Source of the DNA: an uncultured Opitutia bacterium
Lineage (GTDB): Bacteria; Verrucomicrobiota; Verrucomicrobiia; Opitutales; Opitutaceae
Direction: 5' to 3'
Assembly: GCA_903902745.1 (NCBI GenBank)
Contig: CAIUWA010000052.1
Coordinates: forward strand, 1 to 64,000
DNA: 64,000 bases
Numbering within the stretch: the first letter of the stretch is position 1; every line of letters starts with the position of its first letter. A program made the position numbers and the translations under genes. Below the pieces are notes generated by a model, which saw only the letters and a list, made by a program, of their open reading frames with translations, searched no databases and was not told the DNA's origin. This document shows, one piece after another, positions 20,773 through 31,144 of this stretch.

Positions 20773-22700
20773 GCGCCCCCGGAGTTATCCGCGACCTCGG
20801 CCTCGTCCGCCGTCCGCGCGACGACGACGAGGACGAGGAGCAGTTCAAGCCGCTGGAATGGGGCCTGATCCGCCGGCTCTTCACCTATGCTGCGCCCGAC
20901 CGGCGCAAACTCACGGTGCTCTGCATCATTTCCGTGATCCGTTCGGCGCAGTTGCCGGCGTTTGCCTGGATCATGGCGCTCATCATCAAGGGGCCCATCT
21001 CGCGGGGGGACCTGACCGGCGTCGCCTGGGGTGTCGCCGGGTATGCGCTGCTCGCCATCACCACGGACGGGTTGTTTCATTTCCGGCAGCGCTATGCGCT
21101 CGAGGTGGGCGAGACGGTCGTCAACGGCCTGCGTGCGGATATCTTCGCCCGGACGCAGCGGCAGCCGATGAGTTTCTTCCACCGCGTGAAGATCGGCCGC
21201 ATCATCGGCCGGGTGACGAGCGACGTGGAGGCGGTGCGTCTCGGCATCCAGGACGTGCTGTTCGTGAGTGTCATTCAGTTTGGCTCGATGGTTTTCACCG
21301 CGGCGGTCATGGCCTGGTGCGACTGGCAGTTGTTCCTCGTGGTGGTCGCGATGGCGCCGGTGCTCTGGATGATCAACCGGCACTTCCGGGTGAAGCTCAG
21401 CTATTATTCACGCGCGGCCTCGGAAAGCTTCAGCCGCGTCACGGCGACCCTGGCGGAATCCGTCAACGGCATCCGCGTGACCCAGGGTTTTGTGCGGCAG
21501 GACACCAACGCCGGCCTGTTCCGCAGCCTGCTCGCGGACCACTCGCGCTACAGCATCAACCTCGCGCGCACCTCCGCGATCCTCACGCCGCTGCTCGAGC
21601 TCAACAGCCAGTTTTTCGTGGCGATCCTGCTGATGTTCGGCGGCTGGCGGGTCTTCCACCACAGCATGGCGGTGGGCGACCTGATCACCTTCTTCCTGCT
21701 CGCGAACCAGTTCTTCGCCCCCATCGCGATCATCGGCAACCAGTACAACCAGGCGCTTATCGCCATGGCCGGGGCGGAGCGCGTCTTCCGCCTCATCGAC
21801 ACCAAGCCCGACTGGGAGGATGCGCCCGGAGCCGAACCCCTCGCGGATCCGCGAGGGAAGTCACAAGTAGCAAGTGACAAGGATCAAGATGGCCGGGCCG
21901 GAGGCTCGGATCCTTGTGACTTGAAACTTGATCCTTGTTACTTGCCGCCGGCGGCCGCCGGCGTGCAGGTGGAATTCCGCGGGGTTTCCTTCGGCTATGC
22001 CCCCGACCGCCTTGTGCTGCACGACGTGAACTTCACGGCGGAACCCGGTCAGAACATCGCGCTGGTCGGGCACACCGGCAGCGGCAAGAGCTCGATCATC
22101 AACCTCGTCGCGAAGTTTTATCTGCCGACCGCGGGCGAGCTGCTGATCGACGGGCGCGAGGTGCGCACCCTCACGAGCCAGTCGCTGCACCGGCAGATGG
22201 GCATGGTGCAGCAGCAGAATTTCCTCTTCAGCGGCACCGTCCTCGACAACATCCGCCTGAGCAAACCGGAAGCGGTTGAGGACGAGGTGCGGGCCGCCGC
22301 CGGGCGGCTCGACTGCCTGGATCTTCTCGAGGCGCTGCCGGCGGGACTGCACACGGAGGTGGGCGAACACGGCGCCAACCTCTCCGTCGGCCAGCGCCAG
22401 CTGGTCTGCTTCACGCGGGCGATGCTGGCCGACCCGCGGCTCGTCATCCTCGACGAGGCGACGAGCTCGATCGATGCACTCACGGAGGCGCGGCTGCAAA
22501 AGGCGCTGGTCAGCCTGCTGCGCGGGCGCACGAGCTTCATCGTGGCGCACCGGCTGAGCACGATCCGTCACGCCGATCTGGTGCTGGTGCTCGACCAGGG
22601 TCGCATCATCGAGCGCGGCACGCATCCTCAACTGCTGGACCGCGGCGGCCATTATGCGGCGCTCTACCGGCAATTCGTGCAAGTTGACGAACGGGCCTGA
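20769..22700 (+). CDS. ABC exporter half-transporter, catalytic-site subunit
   Basis: Partner of the preceding half-transporter, 643 residues. An acidic N-terminal segment (DDDEDEEQ) precedes six helices (about 35-330). The ATPase domain has Walker A GHTGSGKS, signature LSVGQRQL, Walker B LVILDEATSSID with the catalytic Glu, and VAHRLST. Pairing with the upstream subunit gives one full site (this Walker B with its LSGGQ) and one weak site (its DD with this LSVGQ). Residues 364-393, between the membrane and ATPase domains, are encoded by a palindromic repeat and look inserted. The start overlaps the upstream stop. Substrate unknown. Confidence 0.9.
   Translation: MSAPGVIRDLGLVRRPRDDDEDEEQFKPLEWGLIRRLFTYAAPDRRKLTVLCIISVIRSAQLPAFAWIMALIIKGPISRGDLTGVAWGVAGYALLAITTDGLFHFRQRYALEVGETVVNGLRADIFARTQRQPMSFFHRVKIGRIIGRVTSDVEAVRLGIQDVLFVSVIQFGSMVFTAAVMAWCDWQLFLVVVAMAPVLWMINRHFRVKLSYYSRAASESFSRVTATLAESVNGIRVTQGFVRQDTNAGLFRSLLADHSRYSINLARTSAILTPLLELNSQFFVAILLMFGGWRVFHHSMAVGDLITFFLLANQFFAPIAIIGNQYNQALIAMAGAERVFRLIDTKPDWEDAPGAEPLADPRGKSQVASDKDQDGRAGGSDPCDLKLDPCYLPPAAAGVQVEFRGVSFGYAPDRLVLHDVNFTAEPGQNIALVGHTGSGKSSIINLVAKFYLPTAGELLIDGREVRTLTSQSLHRQMGMVQQQNFLFSGTVLDNIRLSKPEAVEDEVRAAAGRLDCLDLLEALPAGLHTEVGEHGANLSVGQRQLVCFTRAMLADPRLVILDEATSSIDALTEARLQKALVSLLRGRTSFIVAHRLSTIRHADLVLVLDQGRIIERGTHPQLLDRGGHYAALYRQFVQVDERA
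21859..21945. repeat. Palindromic repeat inserted in frame inside the ABC exporter gene
   Basis: CAAGTGACAAGGATCAAG (21872-21889) is mirrored by CTTGATCCTTGTTACTTG (21928-21945), one mismatch in 18. A second inner pair is AAGTCACAAG with CTTGTGACTT. It is translated without a stop, adding roughly 29 residues (SQVASDKDQ...SDPCDLKLDPCYL) with codon use unlike the surrounding gene. Confidence 0.85.
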
Positions 22701-22806
22701 ACGGCGGCCCCCGAAAAAAAGTGAAGATTTTCCTCGGAAAACAGCCATTTCTCCCTCTAAAAGGACATTGCTTTCAGAGGAAAGCGTCCTACAACCCACA
22801 ATCACT

Positions 22807-23073
22807 ATGGCTAAATCAGCTCGTAAACCAAACGCTGCGTTCATGAAACCGGTCACGCCCGATGCCGCTCTGTCGGCTGTCGTTGGCTCGGCCCCCCTCC
22901 CCCGCACGGAGCTCACCAAGAAGCTCTGGGCTTACATCAAGAAGAATGGCCTCCAGGACAAGAAGGTCCGGACCCAGATCAATGCCGACGACAAGCTCAA
23001 GATCGTCTTCGGTGGCAAGGGCAAGGTCAGCATGTTCGAGATGACCAAGCTCGTCTCGGGTCACGTCAAGTAA
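22807..23073 (+). CDS. SWIB/MDM2-domain protein
   Basis: An 88-residue protein that is nearly all SWIB domain: LPRTELTKKLWAYIKKNGLQ, the conserved KVRTQINADDKLKIVFGGKG and a final FEMTKLVSGHVK. In eukaryotes the domain occurs in chromatin-remodelling subunits; in Chlamydiae it is fused to topoisomerase I or stands alone, and stand-alone forms are found in Verrucomicrobia and Planctomycetes. The bacterial role is not well established; DNA or chromatin association is plausible. The N-terminus is basic. The ATG at 22807 has no Shine-Dalgarno sequence. Confidence 0.92.
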   Translation: MAKSARKPNAAFMKPVTPDAALSAVVGSAPLPRTELTKKLWAYIKKNGLQDKKVRTQINADDKLKIVFGGKGKVSMFEMTKLVSGHVK

Positions 23074-24860: not shown

Positions 24861-26096
24861 TCAGGGGCCACCGCCGGGAATGGCAGGTCGCACACCTGCT
24901 GCGGGAAGTGGACGGGGTTGGAGGTTTTGCAGCCAGGAGCCACCGTATTGCTTGTAAGCTTCAAACCCGCTTTCACCAAGTCCGGGGGTGAGCTTCGTTC
25001 TGACCTCATCCACAAGGGCGGCGAGCTGCTGGGTGCGGTCGTCTTGGGTGAGCGCACGGTTGGTTTGGATGGTGCGCGCGCGCTGTTGGATGTCCTGCTG
25101 CAGCGCATAGATCTCATTGGTCGTCTCCGGCGGCAGTTGCAGCCGGGCGACAAGCTGGCTGGTCTGGCGGAAGTTGTAATCGTTGGCGCGTTGGTATTCC
25201 GCATAGCGGGCGTCGCCGAAGGCGGCCTTGATATCGTCGTTGAGCTGCTTTTGCGCGTCGCTGCGCGCCTTCATTTCGTCCTGGGACAGGGGTCCGCCAT
25301 ATTGCGTGCCGATCCGGTCGTTGAACGCCTGCTGAAGCTGGAAGAGCGTGCGAAACTCCTGCTCGGTGGCATCGAAGGCGGTCAGGCTGTAGCGGAGCTG
25401 GTTCGCCGTATTGCTGGTGCGGAGATCGTAGTCCTCAAGTTCCTGCGGGGTGAGGGTCGCGGCGATTTCCGCGTGCATGGCTTTGTCTAGTGCAGCGAGC
25501 TTGTCCCGGTCCGCCGGGGACGCGGTGCCCCCGGGACCTTGGTTGGCGTAGATGTCGCTGCGCCGCTGGCCGTAGTCATCGCGAATGGCCGCGAGTTGCG
25601 CGATCTTGTCGGCGGGGAGGTTGGGCAGCTGCCGTTGCAGGGTGGCCGCACTGCCGTTCTCGGGATCGGGCCCGAGCAGATCGGTCAACGCTTTCTGTTC
25701 CTCCTTGGCGATCGCGCGCATCGCCGCCTGGGCCTGCGGGTCGGGGGCCACGGTCTTCCAGAATGGGATTTCGCCGCGGGCGGTATCAAACGCCTTGCGC
25801 CGGGCGGCGAAGCCTTCGCGGATCTGCGCGGCGAGGATCGCGCGGATCATCGCCGGCGGAAATCCCTCGGCGATTAAACGGTCGCGTTGCACGGTCAGGT
25901 CCTCCGAGTGGAGGGCGGTCCAGGTTTCAGCGGTGGGCGAGCCGGCAGCCGCCGTCGCGGCAGCTCCAGTGGCGCCAGTTGCGGCGGTGCGGGAGGAGAT
26001 GACGGGAGAAGGATTCGACACGCCCAGCACAAGGCACGCGACGAGGGCGGCATTCGCGATGAGCGAGGCGCCGAGGAGCAGACTCGATACTTTCAT
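24861..26096 (-). CDS. Secreted helical protein, tandem array copy 4 of 4 (last gene)
   Basis: A 411-residue protein of unknown family. An N-terminal membrane anchor or signal (MKVSSLLLGASLIANAALVA) is followed by a low-complexity Ala/Thr linker and a charged, largely helical body. Landmarks shared with its three neighbours: EGFPPAMIRAILAAQ (about 76-90), LPADKIAQLAAIRDDY, LTPQELEDYDLRTSNTANQL, TEQEFRTLF, and the ending YKQYGGSWLQNLQPRP. Transcribed last in a compact four-gene unit, 12 bases after its neighbour. The LTPxELxDYxLR motif loosely recalls LTxxQ motifs of Spy/CpxP chaperones, but the match is weak. Confidence 0.72.
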   Translation of the reverse strand: MKVSSLLLGASLIANAALVACLVLGVSNPSPVISSRTAATGATGAAATAAAGSPTAETWTALHSEDLTVQRDRLIAEGFPPAMIRAILAAQIREGFAARRKAFDTARGEIPFWKTVAPDPQAQAAMRAIAKEEQKALTDLLGPDPENGSAATLQRQLPNLPADKIAQLAAIRDDYGQRRSDIYANQGPGGTASPADRDKLAALDKAMHAEIAATLTPQELEDYDLRTSNTANQLRYSLTAFDATEQEFRTLFQLQQAFNDRIGTQYGGPLSQDEMKARSDAQKQLNDDIKAAFGDARYAEYQRANDYNFRQTSQLVARLQLPPETTNEIYALQQDIQQRARTIQTNRALTQDDRTQQLAALVDEVRTKLTPGLGESGFEAYKQYGGSWLQNLQPRPLPAAGVRPAIPGGGP

Positions 26097-26108
26097 GGAG
26101 GGCAGGGG

Positions 26109-27446
26109 TTAGGGCCCGGGGCGGGGCGCGGTTATGGGAACCCGGCGATAGGAAGGCCCGCCAGTGAATGTGATCATGGCCGGGCTTCCGTTCACCGTCG
26201 TCCCGATCGAGGACGTCATGGAGGTGTTGCTGAAAGTAATGGCGCTGCCCCGTTCGACATTGGTCAGCCAGCTATCCTGGATCTTCGTGTAGGTCGGGCC
26301 GGCAGTCGGACCGAGCAGCGCCAGGGTCTGGGCCCGCGTGTTCTGGGCGAGGGTTTGCAGGGCGAGGTGCTTCTGGTCGGGCGTGAGTGTGGGATCGTCG
26401 AAGATGCGGTTGGACTCCTCCGCCACGGTGTCGCGCAGATTGTACGCCCGGATAGCCGTGGCCGCCGGGATGTTTTCCTGCTGCGCAATCCGCGAGAGCT
26501 GCTGGAAATCGCGATTCGTCTCGCGCTGGTAATCGGCGTAACGGGCGTCGCCCAGCGACATTTTCAGATCGGCGTTGAGCTGTTGCAGGGCCGCCTGGCG
26601 GGTTTCCGGGTCGGCGCTGCGAAGGTCGCCGGTCGGGGCCACCGCGGCGCCGTACTTCTGCTGGGCCTGGAAGACGGCCCGGAACTCAGCCTCGCTCGAG
26701 TCGAAGCCACCGAGGTAGCGGCCCAGCAGACTGACGAGCGGTGAGGAGCGCAGCTCGTAATCGGCGAGTTCTTCCGGCGTCAGTATGGCGGCGAGGTCGG
26801 CATGCTTCTCGCTCGCGAGCAACACGAGCTTCTCGCGGTCTTCCGGGAGCGTGACGCCATTCATCCCGGCGCGAACGGCGGAGCTCATGTCGCCATAGTC
26901 ATCCTCGATGCGCTGGAGCTGGTCGATTTTCTGGCGAGACAGGTTGCCGAACTGCCGGCGCTGGGCCGCCGAGACGTCGTCAGTGGCGAACGCCGGGTCG
27001 CTGAACAAATCGCGCATGAGCTTCGAGCGCTCGCGTTGCAGCCGGGTATATTCGGCATAATTCTTCGAGTCGCTGGAGATGAAACCCGACTGTTTCCAAT
27101 AGGGCGTATTGGGGTCGGGCTCGAGGAGCGCGCGCATCCGCGTGTCGTAGCGGGCGTTGAGCTCGGCGCTGACGATTGCGCGGATGAGCGAGACCGGAAA
27201 GCCCGCGGCGCGCAGGCGGGCGACGAGCGTAGCGAGGTCGTCGGTCTTCAAGGCGGACCAGAGTTGGCCCCGGGTCGTGGACTGCGCCGCCGGGCTGGCG
27301 GCCGGAGCGGCGGCGGTCTGCCCGTCGGAGTGAAAATGCCGCGCGAAAAAATCCTGGAAGGCCGGCGGAGTCAGCGAAGGTCGAAGAGCGAACGCGGCGA
27401 GAAAGCCGTTGGCGGCCAGCGACACGGCAATGAGCGGGATTTTCAT
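26109..27446 (-). CDS. Secreted helical protein, tandem array copy 3 of 4
   Basis: A 445-residue paralog of its neighbours. Signal or anchor MKIPLIAVSLAANGFLAAFA; shared landmarks AAGFPVSLIRAIVSAEL, YWKQSGF, LSRQKIDQLQRIEDDYGDM, LTPEELADYELRSSPLVSLL, SEAEFRAVFQAQ, GDARYADYQRETNRDFQQL. The C-terminus differs: after SWLTNVERG it has a Thr/Ser-rich stretch (AITFSNTSMTSSIGTTVNG and AMITFTGGPSYRR) instead of the usual YK-GG-WL ending. Gap to the next gene is 12 bases and from the previous gene 10 bases. Function unknown. Confidence 0.72.
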   Translation of the reverse strand: MKIPLIAVSLAANGFLAAFALRPSLTPPAFQDFFARHFHSDGQTAAAPAASPAAQSTTRGQLWSALKTDDLATLVARLRAAGFPVSLIRAIVSAELNARYDTRMRALLEPDPNTPYWKQSGFISSDSKNYAEYTRLQRERSKLMRDLFSDPAFATDDVSAAQRRQFGNLSRQKIDQLQRIEDDYGDMSSAVRAGMNGVTLPEDREKLVLLASEKHADLAAILTPEELADYELRSSPLVSLLGRYLGGFDSSEAEFRAVFQAQQKYGAAVAPTGDLRSADPETRQAALQQLNADLKMSLGDARYADYQRETNRDFQQLSRIAQQENIPAATAIRAYNLRDTVAEESNRIFDDPTLTPDQKHLALQTLAQNTRAQTLALLGPTAGPTYTKIQDSWLTNVERGSAITFSNTSMTSSIGTTVNGSPAMITFTGGPSYRRVPITAPRPGP

Positions 27447-27456
27447 GAAGAGGTAT

Positions 27457-28713
27457 TTATTTGGAGGCCGGTGCCTTGGGCCGCGGCGTGAGCTGGTTCA
27501 GCCATTGGCCGCCGTTCTGTTTGTAGCCTTCGAGGCCGCGGGCACCGAGGGTGGCGGTGATCTTGGTGGCGGCTTCCTGCGCGAGGGCGACGAGCTGGGC
27601 GGTGCGGGCATCGGCCGAGAGCTTGCGGTCGGCACGCACGGCAGCGACGCGCTGCTGGACGTCCTGCTGCACCGAGGCCACTTGCGCGGCGGCGGAAAGC
27701 GGAAGATCGAGGCGGGCCACGAGGGCGTTGAGCTGCTGGTACTGGGGCTGGGAGGCCTGCTGGTAGTCGGCGTAACGCTCAGGACCCAGCAGGGCCTTGA
27801 TCTGCTCTCGCATTTGTTCCTCGGCGGCGCGTTGGTCGTCTGACTGTCCCATCAAGGCCAGCGCAAAGGGCATCCCCGAGAATTTTTCGTCCACGGCTTG
27901 GTAGAGAGGGAACAGCGCGCGGTACTCGGCCTCGGTGGCATTGAAGCCGGTGAGCGCCTGCCGGAGCCGTTCCGAGGCAGGGCTGTTGCGCAGGTCGTAC
28001 TCGAGCAGTTCGTCCGGCGTGAGCAGTTTGGCGATGGAGGCATGCATCTCTTTTTCCATGAGCGTGGCCTTGTCCATCGCGGCGACTTTTTCATCGTCCG
28101 ACAAAGGCGGACCACCACCGGACTGGCCGTTGAGCCGGGAAAATTGCTCCATGGAGTCCCGCTGGATGGACGTGAGCTGGGCCACTTTCTCGGCGGGAAG
28201 ATTGCCGTATCGCGCGATCCGGTCGGCGCGGGCGGCATCGCTGTCTCCCAGCGCGGAATCATCGGTGCCGAGAAGCTGCTTCATTGTGTCACTTCGCTCG
28301 CGGTCGAGCTGGGCGAGCGCGGCGGCAGTCTGGGCGTCGGCCGCGGTTCTCGGGCGGTTTTTCCAGTAGGGCCCGGAAATCTCGTCATACGACAGCGCCT
28401 GCCGGCGCAATTCGAAGCGCTGGTTGATGAGGGCGCGCAGGATGTTGGGTGGAAAACCAGCGGCGCGCAGCCGGGCAACGGTGGGGCCGAGATCGTCGGT
28501 GCCAAGCTTGGCCCCCGGTTTGGTGGAGCCCGAAAGGCTGGTTGTGGTGGCAGTGGCAGACTCCGCAGCCCGGGTGGAAGAGGCGGTGGCAAAGTTTTCC
28601 ACGGCCGAACCGAGGGAGGCCGGCGGCGAATCCGCAGGGCTCAGGACGAGTGCGGCGAGCAACGCGACATTGGCCGCGAGTGAACCGGCGAGCATGACGG
28701 AGGAAAGCTTCAT
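27457..28713 (-). CDS. Secreted helical protein, tandem array copy 2 of 4
   Basis: A 418-residue paralog. Signal or anchor MKLSSVMLAGSLAANVALLA; linker rich in Ser/Thr/Ala; shared landmarks AAGFPPNILRALINQRFELR, YWKNR, LPAEKVAQLTSIQRD, LTPDELLEYDLRNSPASERL, TEAEYRALF, GPERYADYQQASQPQYQQL and the ending YKQNGGQWLNQLTPRP. The start overlaps the stop of the upstream copy (ATGA), so the two are translationally coupled. Function unknown. Confidence 0.72.
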   Translation of the reverse strand: MKLSSVMLAGSLAANVALLAALVLSPADSPPASLGSAVENFATASSTRAAESATATTTSLSGSTKPGAKLGTDDLGPTVARLRAAGFPPNILRALINQRFELRRQALSYDEISGPYWKNRPRTAADAQTAAALAQLDRERSDTMKQLLGTDDSALGDSDAARADRIARYGNLPAEKVAQLTSIQRDSMEQFSRLNGQSGGGPPLSDDEKVAAMDKATLMEKEMHASIAKLLTPDELLEYDLRNSPASERLRQALTGFNATEAEYRALFPLYQAVDEKFSGMPFALALMGQSDDQRAAEEQMREQIKALLGPERYADYQQASQPQYQQLNALVARLDLPLSAAAQVASVQQDVQQRVAAVRADRKLSADARTAQLVALAQEAATKITATLGARGLEGYKQNGGQWLNQLTPRPKAPASK

Positions 28714-29981
28714 GGCGTGGGTGCAGGCCGGGCCACTGGCGGTGTGGCCGGGCGAAGCCGGGCAGCGCGCTGTTCAAGACTGGTGAGCCAGCCGCCATTG
28801 CCCGCCTTGTAGGTCGCGAGCCCGCTTTCGCCGAGCGTGCCGGTAAGCGTGGCTGTGGCTTCCTGGGCGAGCGCTGCAAGCTGGACCCCGCGCTGACCAG
28901 CCGTGAGCGATTTGTCGGCGATGATCGCGGTCATGCGGCTGGTCGTGTCCCGTTGGACGCCCACGATCTGCGCCGTGGCCGTGGCGGGCAGGGCGAGGCT
29001 CGTGACCAGTTGGTCCGTTTGCAGGTACGCGGGATCGGTCATGAGCTGGTAATCTGCAAAACGCTCGGGGGAGAGCACGGACTTGAGTTGTTCGGTGACC
29101 GTGCCCAGCGAATTACGGCGCTCGCGTCGCTCATCCACGGTGAGAAATGCGATCCGGCCGTCGCCGTACTGGGCATCGAAATCCTGCTGCACCTTGAAGA
29201 TGGTGCGGAATTCGTCCTCGGTGGGATTGAACGCGTTGAGCTGGTCGTGAAGCCGGTTGGCTATGGCGCTCGTGCGCAGGTTGTACTCGAAGAGTTCATT
29301 GGGACTTAAAAGCTTCTCCAGGTCCGCGCGTTTTTGCTCCTCGAGGAAAGCGAGCTTCTCGCGGTCCTCCGGGAGGATGATGTTCCGGCCTTGAGCGCGG
29401 ATGTCGGCCATGAGGTCGGAATAATCCGAGTTGAGCCGGCTGAGTTGCGCGATGCGGTCGGGATCGAGGTTGCCATACCGCCGCTGGGTCCAGGCCCGGT
29501 CGTAATCCGACTGGGCGGTGTCAGGGCCGAGCAACTTATAAAGCAGATCCTGTTCGTCGCTGTTCAACCGCCGGCGCATTGCGGTGATTTTCTGGTCGGC
29601 GAGCGACGTTTCGCCCGGCTGGCCCTGCCACCACGGCTTGGCAGCCACCGCGTCCGCGATGGTCTTGTGGCGGTCGGCGAATCGTTCCGCGACGAGCGCG
29701 GTCATGATCGTGCGCACAAGCTTCGGTGGATAACCCTCGGCGCGAAGCCGGGCGACGACGTCGGATAATTCGCCCGTGGTGAGCTGGGACCATGACTCGG
29801 GACTGCGGCCCGCGGCGGATCCGGAGCTCGAGGTGCCGGAAGCAGCCGGATTGGTACCCGTGGACGCCGGATGAGACGTCGGGGAAAGCCACGCCCGGAC
29901 AGTAGGCCGTTGCACGAAGGCGAAGACCAGCGTGGCATTGACCGCCAGCGAGCCGGCAAGCAGCAGTGGGGAAATTTTCAC
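28710..29981 (-). CDS. Secreted helical protein, tandem array copy 1 of 4 (first gene)
   Basis: A 423-residue paralog, first in the transcription unit. The GTG at 29981 gives MKISPLLLAGSLAVNATLV, which matches the starts of the other three copies; a TTG four codons upstream is less likely. Shared landmarks: RAEGYPPKLVRTIMTALVAE, WWQGQ, LDPDRIAQLSRLNSDYSDL, LSPNELFEYNLRTSAIANRL, TEDEFRTIFKVQQDFD, SPERFADYQLMTDPAYLQT and the ending YKAGNGGWLTSLEQR. Overlaps the next gene by 4 bases. Function unknown; cell-envelope location is inferred from the anchor. Confidence 0.72.
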   Translation of the reverse strand: MKISPLLLAGSLAVNATLVFAFVQRPTVRAWLSPTSHPASTGTNPAASGTSSSGSAAGRSPESWSQLTTGELSDVVARLRAEGYPPKLVRTIMTALVAERFADRHKTIADAVAAKPWWQGQPGETSLADQKITAMRRRLNSDEQDLLYKLLGPDTAQSDYDRAWTQRRYGNLDPDRIAQLSRLNSDYSDLMADIRAQGRNIILPEDREKLAFLEEQKRADLEKLLSPNELFEYNLRTSAIANRLHDQLNAFNPTEDEFRTIFKVQQDFDAQYGDGRIAFLTVDERRERRNSLGTVTEQLKSVLSPERFADYQLMTDPAYLQTDQLVTSLALPATATAQIVGVQRDTTSRMTAIIADKSLTAGQRGVQLAALAQEATATLTGTLGESGLATYKAGNGGWLTSLEQRAARLRPATPPVARPAPTP

Positions 29982-30139: not shown

Positions 30140-30941
30140 TCACGCTTTTTGCGCGGGGTGGGAGAAACGGCCGGTGCGGAGAAAAGTCCGGGTTTGGGCG
30201 ATCGTGTCGCCGCGCCATTGCAGCCAGGTGTGGGAATGCGGCAGAACGAGGAAATCACTCATGCCCCTCCAGCTGCGCACTGGCCACGGAAACTTTCCCG
30301 TCATTGGGGCCGCCCATCCACGCCGAGAAAAGCGGGTTGAAGGGGCGGTTGCCGGCAATGATACCGAGGCGTCCCGTGCTGGTCCAGGGACCGAGCAAAC
30401 GGGGCAGGGAATCTGGACCGGTGCCCAGACGCCGGCCATTCACGCTGGTGATCCAGCGGAAGGGCGGAAAATCGATGAGCCGGTCGACGACTTCGCTGCC
30501 AGCATTGGGCGGCGCAAGCATGACGATCCGGCCGAGGCGGCCGGAGTAATTGGGGGTTGGGAATTGGTAGTTGGTGGTGGTGGCGGTCTGATCGCGCAGC
30601 CAGAGTCGCAGCAGGATACCGCCCATTGAATGCGTGACGAAGTGCAGCTGGGTTGCGGTGTCGGCGTCGTTTTCGTGCAGCACGCGGGGCAGCCATTGGT
30701 CGGCGAGCTGTTCGAGCGGCATCGTGCGCGAAGGATAGGAGAGGTTGACGACCTCATACCCATCGCGCCGGAGTGCGATCTCGAAGCGTTTCATGGCCCA
30801 GCTGCCCAGGCCGAGCCCATGCAACAGGACGACGGTCTCACCGGCCGGTTTGGCCGTCGGATCCGTGACCGGAGTGAAGCCGGCGCGGAGGGTGGGGCTC
30901 ATGGCCAGGATTAAAATGAAAGACCGTCGGAAGCGCGACAC
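30140..30941 (-). pseudogene. Alpha/beta-hydrolase (lipase/PGAP1-like), frameshifted near the 3' end
   Basis: A GTG at 30941 opens a signal peptide (SRFRRSFILILAMSPTLRAG), then VVLLHGLGLGSWAM (oxyanion region) and the nucleophile elbow THSMGG. The frame stops at 30255 right after VSVASAQLEGHE. In the next frame the expected ending continues: MSDFLVLPHSHTWLQWRGD, IAQTRTFLRTGRF, carrying the likely catalytic His in LPHSHTW. Removing one C from CCCC at 30264-30267 restores LEGMSDFLVLPHSHTW. So either the gene is recently inactivated or the read has a one-base error. A simple repeat inside it (30547-30580) is translated as TNYQFPTPNYSG. Confidence 0.82.
30547..30580. repeat. Simple repeat (AATTGGGAGTTGGG type) inside the lipase gene
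   Basis: TAATTGGGGGTTGGGAATTG followed by GTAGTTGG. The same unit occurs in frame at 50289-50322 and 51991-52027 in both LysM genes, giving similar peptides (YQFPTPNY, SQLPTPNS). Confidence 0.7.
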
Positions 30942-31144
30942 TCCGATGCGATAGGACCGAAGGGTGGGGGTTGCGGCAAAGTGCCCGGTCCTGCGGTTCA
31001 ATCTGTCATTGGGCCCGAAGCGGATGCGCCTGATGCGCACAAGGCTTGCCCGCCACCGGCGGGTCCACGCCCTGTTGGGGGTACCCTATTTATGATCAGG
31101 TTTGCGCCGGCACTTCGGCCGGCTGAACCTGTCGCAGTTTTCCC

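Follow-up and report, generated by a model that had tools for sequence, protein, structure and literature searches.

The 64,000-nucleotide stretch analysed here (the window; contig CAIUWA010000052.1 of an uncultured Opitutia bacterium) carries, between positions 24861 and 29981, an array of four consecutive genes, A-B-C-D in that order, all on the minus strand and separated by junctions of -4, +10 and +12 bases. An earlier note, made from the sequence alone, had described this tandem array, and the lengths of 423, 418, 445 and 411 residues and the gaps that it gave were confirmed. The four proteins can be aligned along their length and, as had been stated, are well diverged: identity to A is 37% for B, 33% for C and 37% for D, and with D as query it is 42% for B, 39% for A and 35% for C. 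Among the shared motifs previously listed, GFPPxxIRAI, LTPxELxDYxLRxS and TExEFR were found in all four proteins in forms with small changes, whereas YKxxGGxWL is exact in B and D only (YKAGNGGWL in A, YTKIQDSWL in C) and MKxSxLLL in A (its GTG start aside) and D only. Pfam and NCBIfam models gave no meaningful match for any of the four proteins, in line with the earlier note, which had not recognised the family. When 60 aligned members were scanned singly against Pfam, only scattered weak matches appeared, one of them to LTXXQ (E 0.008). None of the four matched in a PADLOC scan, and a role in anti-phage defence was dropped for this reason. Promoter and terminator scans gave counts near those of shuffled sequence.

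To describe the architecture we used an AlphaFold2 model of the gene D protein, built with 60 aligned sequences. The model is all-helical (predicted local distance difference test, pLDDT, 89.5; predicted template modelling score, pTM, 0.76) and consists of an anchor helix (residues 4-23), a low-confidence linker rich in Ala, Ser, Thr and Pro, taken as disordered, and a regularly recurring pattern in which two long helices are followed by short ones. The helical and anchored character proposed from the sequence was thus borne out. Profile-profile comparison of the repeats with one another gave the highest score for R2-R4 (95.2%) and the lowest for R1-R3 (Table 1), and the reversed and column-permuted controls of the six comparisons did not exceed 3.4%. 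In each chain, an anchor helix and a disordered linker precede a helical hairpin of about 80 residues that is repeated four times in tandem, the copies having diverged. In the anchor, S11 (conserved in 51/58) and N15 (55/58) are spaced one turn apart, and SxxxN occurs close to the start in 63/67 array genes. Near-invariant polar residues lie around the junction of R2 with R3 and within R3 itself (S228 in 60/60, E247 in 59/60 and R297 in 58/60).

Table 1. The array, the parts of the gene D protein and the upstream hydrolase gene (positions in the window; percentages are profile-profile scores)
Feature	Position	Strand	Remarks
Gene A	28710..29981	minus	423 residues; GTG start; first gene of the array; anchor helix, linker and helical repeat domain
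Gene B	27457..28713	minus	418 residues; architecture as in A; 4-base overlap with A
Gene C	26109..27446	minus	445 residues; alpha type (alpha clade support 100/99); longer C-terminal tail
Gene D	24861..26096	minus	411 residues; beta type; its protein was the subject of structure prediction
Gene D anchor helix, residues 4-23	26028..26087	minus	near-invariant S11 and N15
Gene D repeat R1, residues 56-148	25653..25931	minus	R1-R2 89.1%, R1-R4 83.2%, R1-R3 36.4%
Gene D repeat R2, residues 149-243	25368..25652	minus	contains LTPQELEDYDLRTS; LTXXQ 91-94%
Gene D repeat R3, residues 239-318	25143..25382	minus	contains TEQEFR; R3-R4 92.5%, R2-R3 78.9%
Gene D repeat R4, residues 306-395	24912..25181	minus	LTXXQ 79-95%
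Upstream alpha/beta hydrolase (Abhydrolase_6)	30255..31040	minus	possible client or mere neighbour; frame looks broken near C-terminus

We then compared single repeats with the LTXXQ family (PF07813), to which Spy and CpxP belong. The comparison set held 15 LTXXQ segments from relatives, 11 of them above the Pfam cut-off, and four subsets of 10-15 sequences were tried. Against the 15 segments, R2 scored 93.5% and R4 93.0%; against the 11 above the cut-off, 93.1% and 94.7%. Removal of one protein, L109 (loci outside the window are designated by L numbers), left 93.7% and 94.7% with the latter set and 91.2% and 79.3% with the former, and the reversed controls for both repeats stayed at or below 1.1%. 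In further hhalign controls, for which R1, R3 and R4 were each permuted 30 times and compared with LTXXQ, an outlier of 99.7% appeared; 240 fresh permutations gave two such outliers, over 2-5 columns, and 238 values of at most 1.0%. All were set aside as numerical artefacts, a verdict reached for the outliers of the 30-permutation sets without their column counts. In addition, the family profile matches short single-hairpin proteins (L075, L109 and L192) at R4, ungapped over about 72 residues. L109 exceeds the Pfam LTXXQ cut-off and L075, from the same genome as the array, falls below it (21 vs 24.3 bits); L192 has other weak Pfam matches only, and L193, the strongest profile match, has no Pfam match. 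None of the four array proteins reached the PF07813 gathering score or was listed at E<=1. The PF07813 model found 1/60 members at E<=0.1 (best 0.008) and 3/55 isolated R2 units at E<=1 (best 3.9e-4), and the Metal_resist model (PF13801) 2/55 R2 units at E 0.07 or weaker.

Folded alone, R2 gave a model with pLDDT 83.4. Among the 50 rows listed when it was compared with solved chains, CnrX was represented by six (Z 6.3-5.3) and Spy by four (Z 5.9-5.2): 3o39 with Z 5.9, root-mean-square deviation (rmsd) 3.5 and 73 aligned residues, and 6bie, 6owy and 6owx with Z 5.7-5.2. Unrelated chains tie with the CnrX and Spy entries alike. With the whole gene D model, VIA-align gave a dynein chain as best match (Z 6.4), and neither Spy nor CnrX was among the 50 rows listed. 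Two matches to PDB sequences were taken as chance: a chain named H12 with the whole-family profile (E 0.019), and ribosomal L7a/eL8 with R2 (E 0.0076), ahead of Spy at 0.49-1.4. A distant homology of the repeat to LTXXQ hairpins of the Spy/CpxP type is, as judged from the profiles, well supported. The loose likeness to Spy/CpxP that the earlier note had seen in a repeated LTP motif therefore held by profile comparison with controls, and more weakly by fold comparison, except that what recurs is four tandem hairpins and not one motif. The array proteins share with LTXXQ proteins the helical hairpin with its LTPxE/LTxxQ-type turn, and differ from them in having four units per chain instead of one, an anchor, a neutral to acidic character, scores below the Pfam cut-off and alternating gene pairs. 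CnrX is likewise tethered by an anchor, and its hairpin fold is the one aligned with R2 above; in contrast to CnrX/Metal_resist, the array proteins have four units and show no metal-ligand pattern. Visual inspection of frames of Metal_resist proteins from relatives showed no SxxxN anchor. Another multi-hairpin arrangement was noticed by eye in L113, from a genome of the same genus, where a protein of 360 residues carries three LTXXQ-like tandem repeats.

Copies of the family were gathered from 80 stretches, with five duplicates removed, and an array was defined as genes on one strand with less than 500 bases between neighbours. Leaving aside arrays flagged as close to a stretch end, 20 arrays have at least two genes; 19 of these are even-numbered and one (L163) has three genes; for unflagged arrays of at least three genes, 8/9 are even-numbered. 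The flagged arrays outside these counts are L012 (2 genes), L014 (6) and L182 (2 partial genes). A careful tree was made of 67 genes from 22 arrays, including L012 and L014 and excluding L182. Two clades stood out. The alpha clade holds 11 genes (support 100/99), and the beta clade also holds 11 (80/76; 99/97 for the nine genes that remain without L010 and L012). In all 11 cases, the gene directly after an alpha gene is a beta gene: C-D in the window, L010 3-4, L012 1-2, L013 1-2 and 3-4, L014 1-2, 3-4 and 5-6, L016 1-2, L018 1-2 and L083 1-2. Independent alternation was found in L086, where genes 1, 3 and 5 separate from 2, 4 and 6 (both 100/100), and likewise in L020 with L183, in L077, and in L076 with L084 and L165. 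In total, 22 alternating pairs account for 44/67 array genes.

Position parity within the arrays required 12 changes on the tree, compared to 25.2 (standard deviation 2.2) when shuffled within arrays, none of 5000 shuffles being as low. With the eight alpha-beta loci removed, 11 changes were counted against 16.2 (standard deviation 1.6), with 14/5000 as low. Distances among alpha genes and among beta genes, taken from a quick tree, correlate at 0.77, a value reached in 0/5000 permutations. Alpha proteins have a longer tail at the C-terminus; its strict pattern ERGx[AS]xx[FS] is present in 7/11 alpha and 0/11 beta proteins, and looser forms were seen by eye in the other four alpha proteins. Duplication by pairs suggests two-part complexes. 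The earlier note had read the array as old duplications kept for distinct roles; the copies are indeed diverged, but this account misses the duplication of two-gene units that lies behind much of the expansion, C-D being one such unit.

By analogy with Spy, the array proteins may act as membrane-tethered chaperones, a function to which we give a probability of roughly one half. A more specific version, proposed tentatively and held with clearly less confidence, is a two-component periplasmic chaperone in which alpha and beta, with four Spy-type hairpins each, would form a tethered hetero-oligomeric cradle, expanded by pair duplication into client-specific versions. The proteins would be tethered in the inner membrane with the repeat domain facing the periplasm, alpha would assemble with beta, and the SxxxN face conserved in the anchor could help to join the two within the membrane. 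Binding of unfolded or newly exported envelope proteins, ATP-independent as in Spy, would then allow them to fold or keep them soluble, and several diverged pairs might serve different clients or stresses. PMC8144458 and PMC3910116 describe Spy as an ATP-independent dimer that forms a cradle, basic on its concave face. In the open-licence literature we found no paper joining LTXXQ, Spy and CpxP, or Spy, CnrX and ZraP, and none joining Verrucomicrobia with LTXXQ or Opitutaceae with a periplasmic chaperone.

Several results weigh against the chaperone reading or parts of it. The domains of the four window proteins are neutral to acidic (isoelectric point, pI, 5.3-6.6, an overall value and not one of the surface; quartiles 5.1-6.3 across 92 rows), and the binding chemistry would therefore differ from that of Spy with its basic concave face. 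LTXXQ relatives include metal sensors besides chaperones. R1 and R3 scored only 0.5-6.3% against LTXXQ over the subsets (0.5% and 6.3%, respectively, against the 15 segments). Two Salmonella VirG-like entries (Z 7.2 and 6.6) and KefC (6.5) stood above CnrX and Spy for the R2 model, and Foldseek gave no match with E below 1 (best E for the whole gene D model, 2.5). Z values in this range are reached by chance among helical hairpins and prove nothing alone; they agree with the sequence profiles. Finally, no two-type alternation was found in 23/67 array genes: A and B of the window, L010 1-2, L017, L025, L081, L163, L164, L166 and L167. In L081 and in the three-gene array L163, an alpha-like tail was seen by eye on every gene. 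Because of these 23 genes and of the one three-gene array, the pair is a common duplication unit and not an obligatory one.

The same tethered multi-repeat helical chain, with its variable copy number and deep divergence between copies, would also suit structural or spacing proteins of the envelope, rods that hold its layers or scaffold other proteins without folding any client. The near-invariant polar residues S228, E247 and R297, together with the kinship to chaperone and sensor hairpins, suggest instead a binding role, and we consider such a structural function improbable.

Relatives in other genomes were retrieved with a profile of the four array proteins at E values down to 6.5e-138, which excludes chance resemblance. 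Matches occurred in 21/57 genomes, that is 21/37 of the Opitutaceae (the genome of the window included) and 0/20 from other families of the order. In the genome of the window, the search retrieved only the four full copies and one short weak homologue, L075, on contig 16. Two short patterns served as seeds for a single scan through the genome contigs of 84,980 species, which gave 36 loci. The titles name a Verrucomicrobiota group for 34 of these, Gammaproteobacteria for one and 'bacterium' for another. When 387 Verrucomicrobiota genomes were drawn evenly, at least 19 had a match, 18 of these in Opitutaceae; at most four candidates were scored per genome, so that these counts are a lower bound. 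The relatives found are nearly all from Verrucomicrobiota, chiefly Opitutaceae. The checks that the earlier note had suggested, profile search and structure prediction (here of gene D), yielded these relatives and an all-helical repeat fold. Its question whether the copies are always in tandem is answered in the negative: outside Opitutaceae, most stretches hold a single copy. The contig titled Gammaproteobacteria (L043) carries a member that groups among Verrucomicrobia in the tree and is possibly misbinned. Short and very divergent relatives lie on the opposite strand, upstream of the hydrolase, at L013:1240-2154 and L016:2701-3873; their match to the family profile is confined to about positions 176-408, and Pfam gave no match.

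In the window, a polyphosphate kinase gene (PPK2) lies downstream of the array and an alpha/beta hydrolase gene upstream. Neighbours were compared across 57 loci, L088 being a repeat of L020 and L075 having the short homologue only. PPK2 and the hydrolase were each found at 5 of these, an EamA-type transporter at 6 and, at 7, a histidine-kinase/response-regulator cluster with one confirmed hybrid kinase. Pfam annotation of 66 of the 116 listed neighbours agrees with this picture, and Pedosphaera-like loci have other neighbour families. As no neighbour is constant, the array looks self-contained. The kinase clusters, and the hairpin superfamily shared with CpxP and CnrX, fit a sensor or regulator of envelope stress whose tethered hairpins, on binding misfolded protein or some other signal, would act on a partner in the membrane, in the way that CpxP acts on CpxA and CnrX on its anti-sigma partner. 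We regard this alternative as unlikely. It lacks a constant partner: the kinase genes near L010, L013, L016, L018 and L077 lie on the other strand, and within 6 kb of the array in the window no kinase gene was seen. Unlike for CnrX, no sigma or anti-sigma gene was found among the neighbours listed, the neighbour clusters of at least 3 loci, or the first 25 of 103 Pfam families of the 66 neighbours, which is not a full search. Rows of up to six copies would be unusual for a sensor. Cys (0.15%) and His (0.62%) are rare among domain residues and absent wherever conservation reaches 75%, which argues against a metal site; a metal sensor was rejected for want of a ligand pattern.

The upstream hydrolase bears on another reading, in which the array proteins would be Lif-like steric foldases that fold a secreted alpha/beta hydrolase encoded upstream. 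It was prompted by a VIA-align match (row 40) of the whole model, residues 52-395, to the B. glumae lipase foldase 2es4_E (Z 4.6, rmsd 7.8, 213 aligned). The array proteins share with Lif the plan given in PMC13381987, an anchor, a disordered linker and an all-helical domain, which faces the client in Lif. R4 scored 38.6% over 33 columns against five Lif proteins, controls reaching at most 0.6%, and because of this excess Lif was kept as a rival. Moreover, of the seven places where PF03280 matches weakly in 34 relatives, two fall inside family members, and a same-cluster hydrolase is present in 5/57 loci. On the other hand, PF03280 was above its cut-off in 0/34 genomes, the whole-family profile scored at most 8.6% against Lif (five sequences only), and RxxFDY, the motif of mini-domain 1, occurs in 0/67 array genes. 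LTXXQ scores far higher, and most loci have no such hydrolase nearby. Weakened by the PF03280, profile and motif results, Lif was rejected as the main answer and is given a small chance, as is some other explanation altogether. The hydrolase itself shows a peculiarity: in the region 30140-31040 (minus strand), the C-terminal end of intact relatives (L013, L016, L012 and L077) sits in another frame, which may reflect a sequencing error or a decaying gene.

Two further genes were noticed near family members. At nine Pedosphaera-like loci (L024, L028, L030, L031, L032, L035, L036, L037 and L041), a convergent gene lies 17-486 bases after the single family gene and encodes one conserved family of about 306 residues with an MxAKRILLIANPxxG start. 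In the window, positions 22654-23073 (plus strand) encode a small protein with a SWIB/MDM2 domain, which to our knowledge is unusual in bacteria outside a few groups.

The family matches no Pfam or NCBIfam model and is found in 21/37 of the Opitutaceae genomes searched. The hairpin of Spy and CnrX is known as a single unit per chain, which dimerises. If the tethered chaperone of paired alpha and beta proteins is correct, this hairpin would also be built into four-unit tethered chains, and these would evolve by duplication of whole partner pairs. Owing to the alternation, the partnership can be tested directly, as binding of alpha to beta would be expected to be stronger than binding of either to itself.

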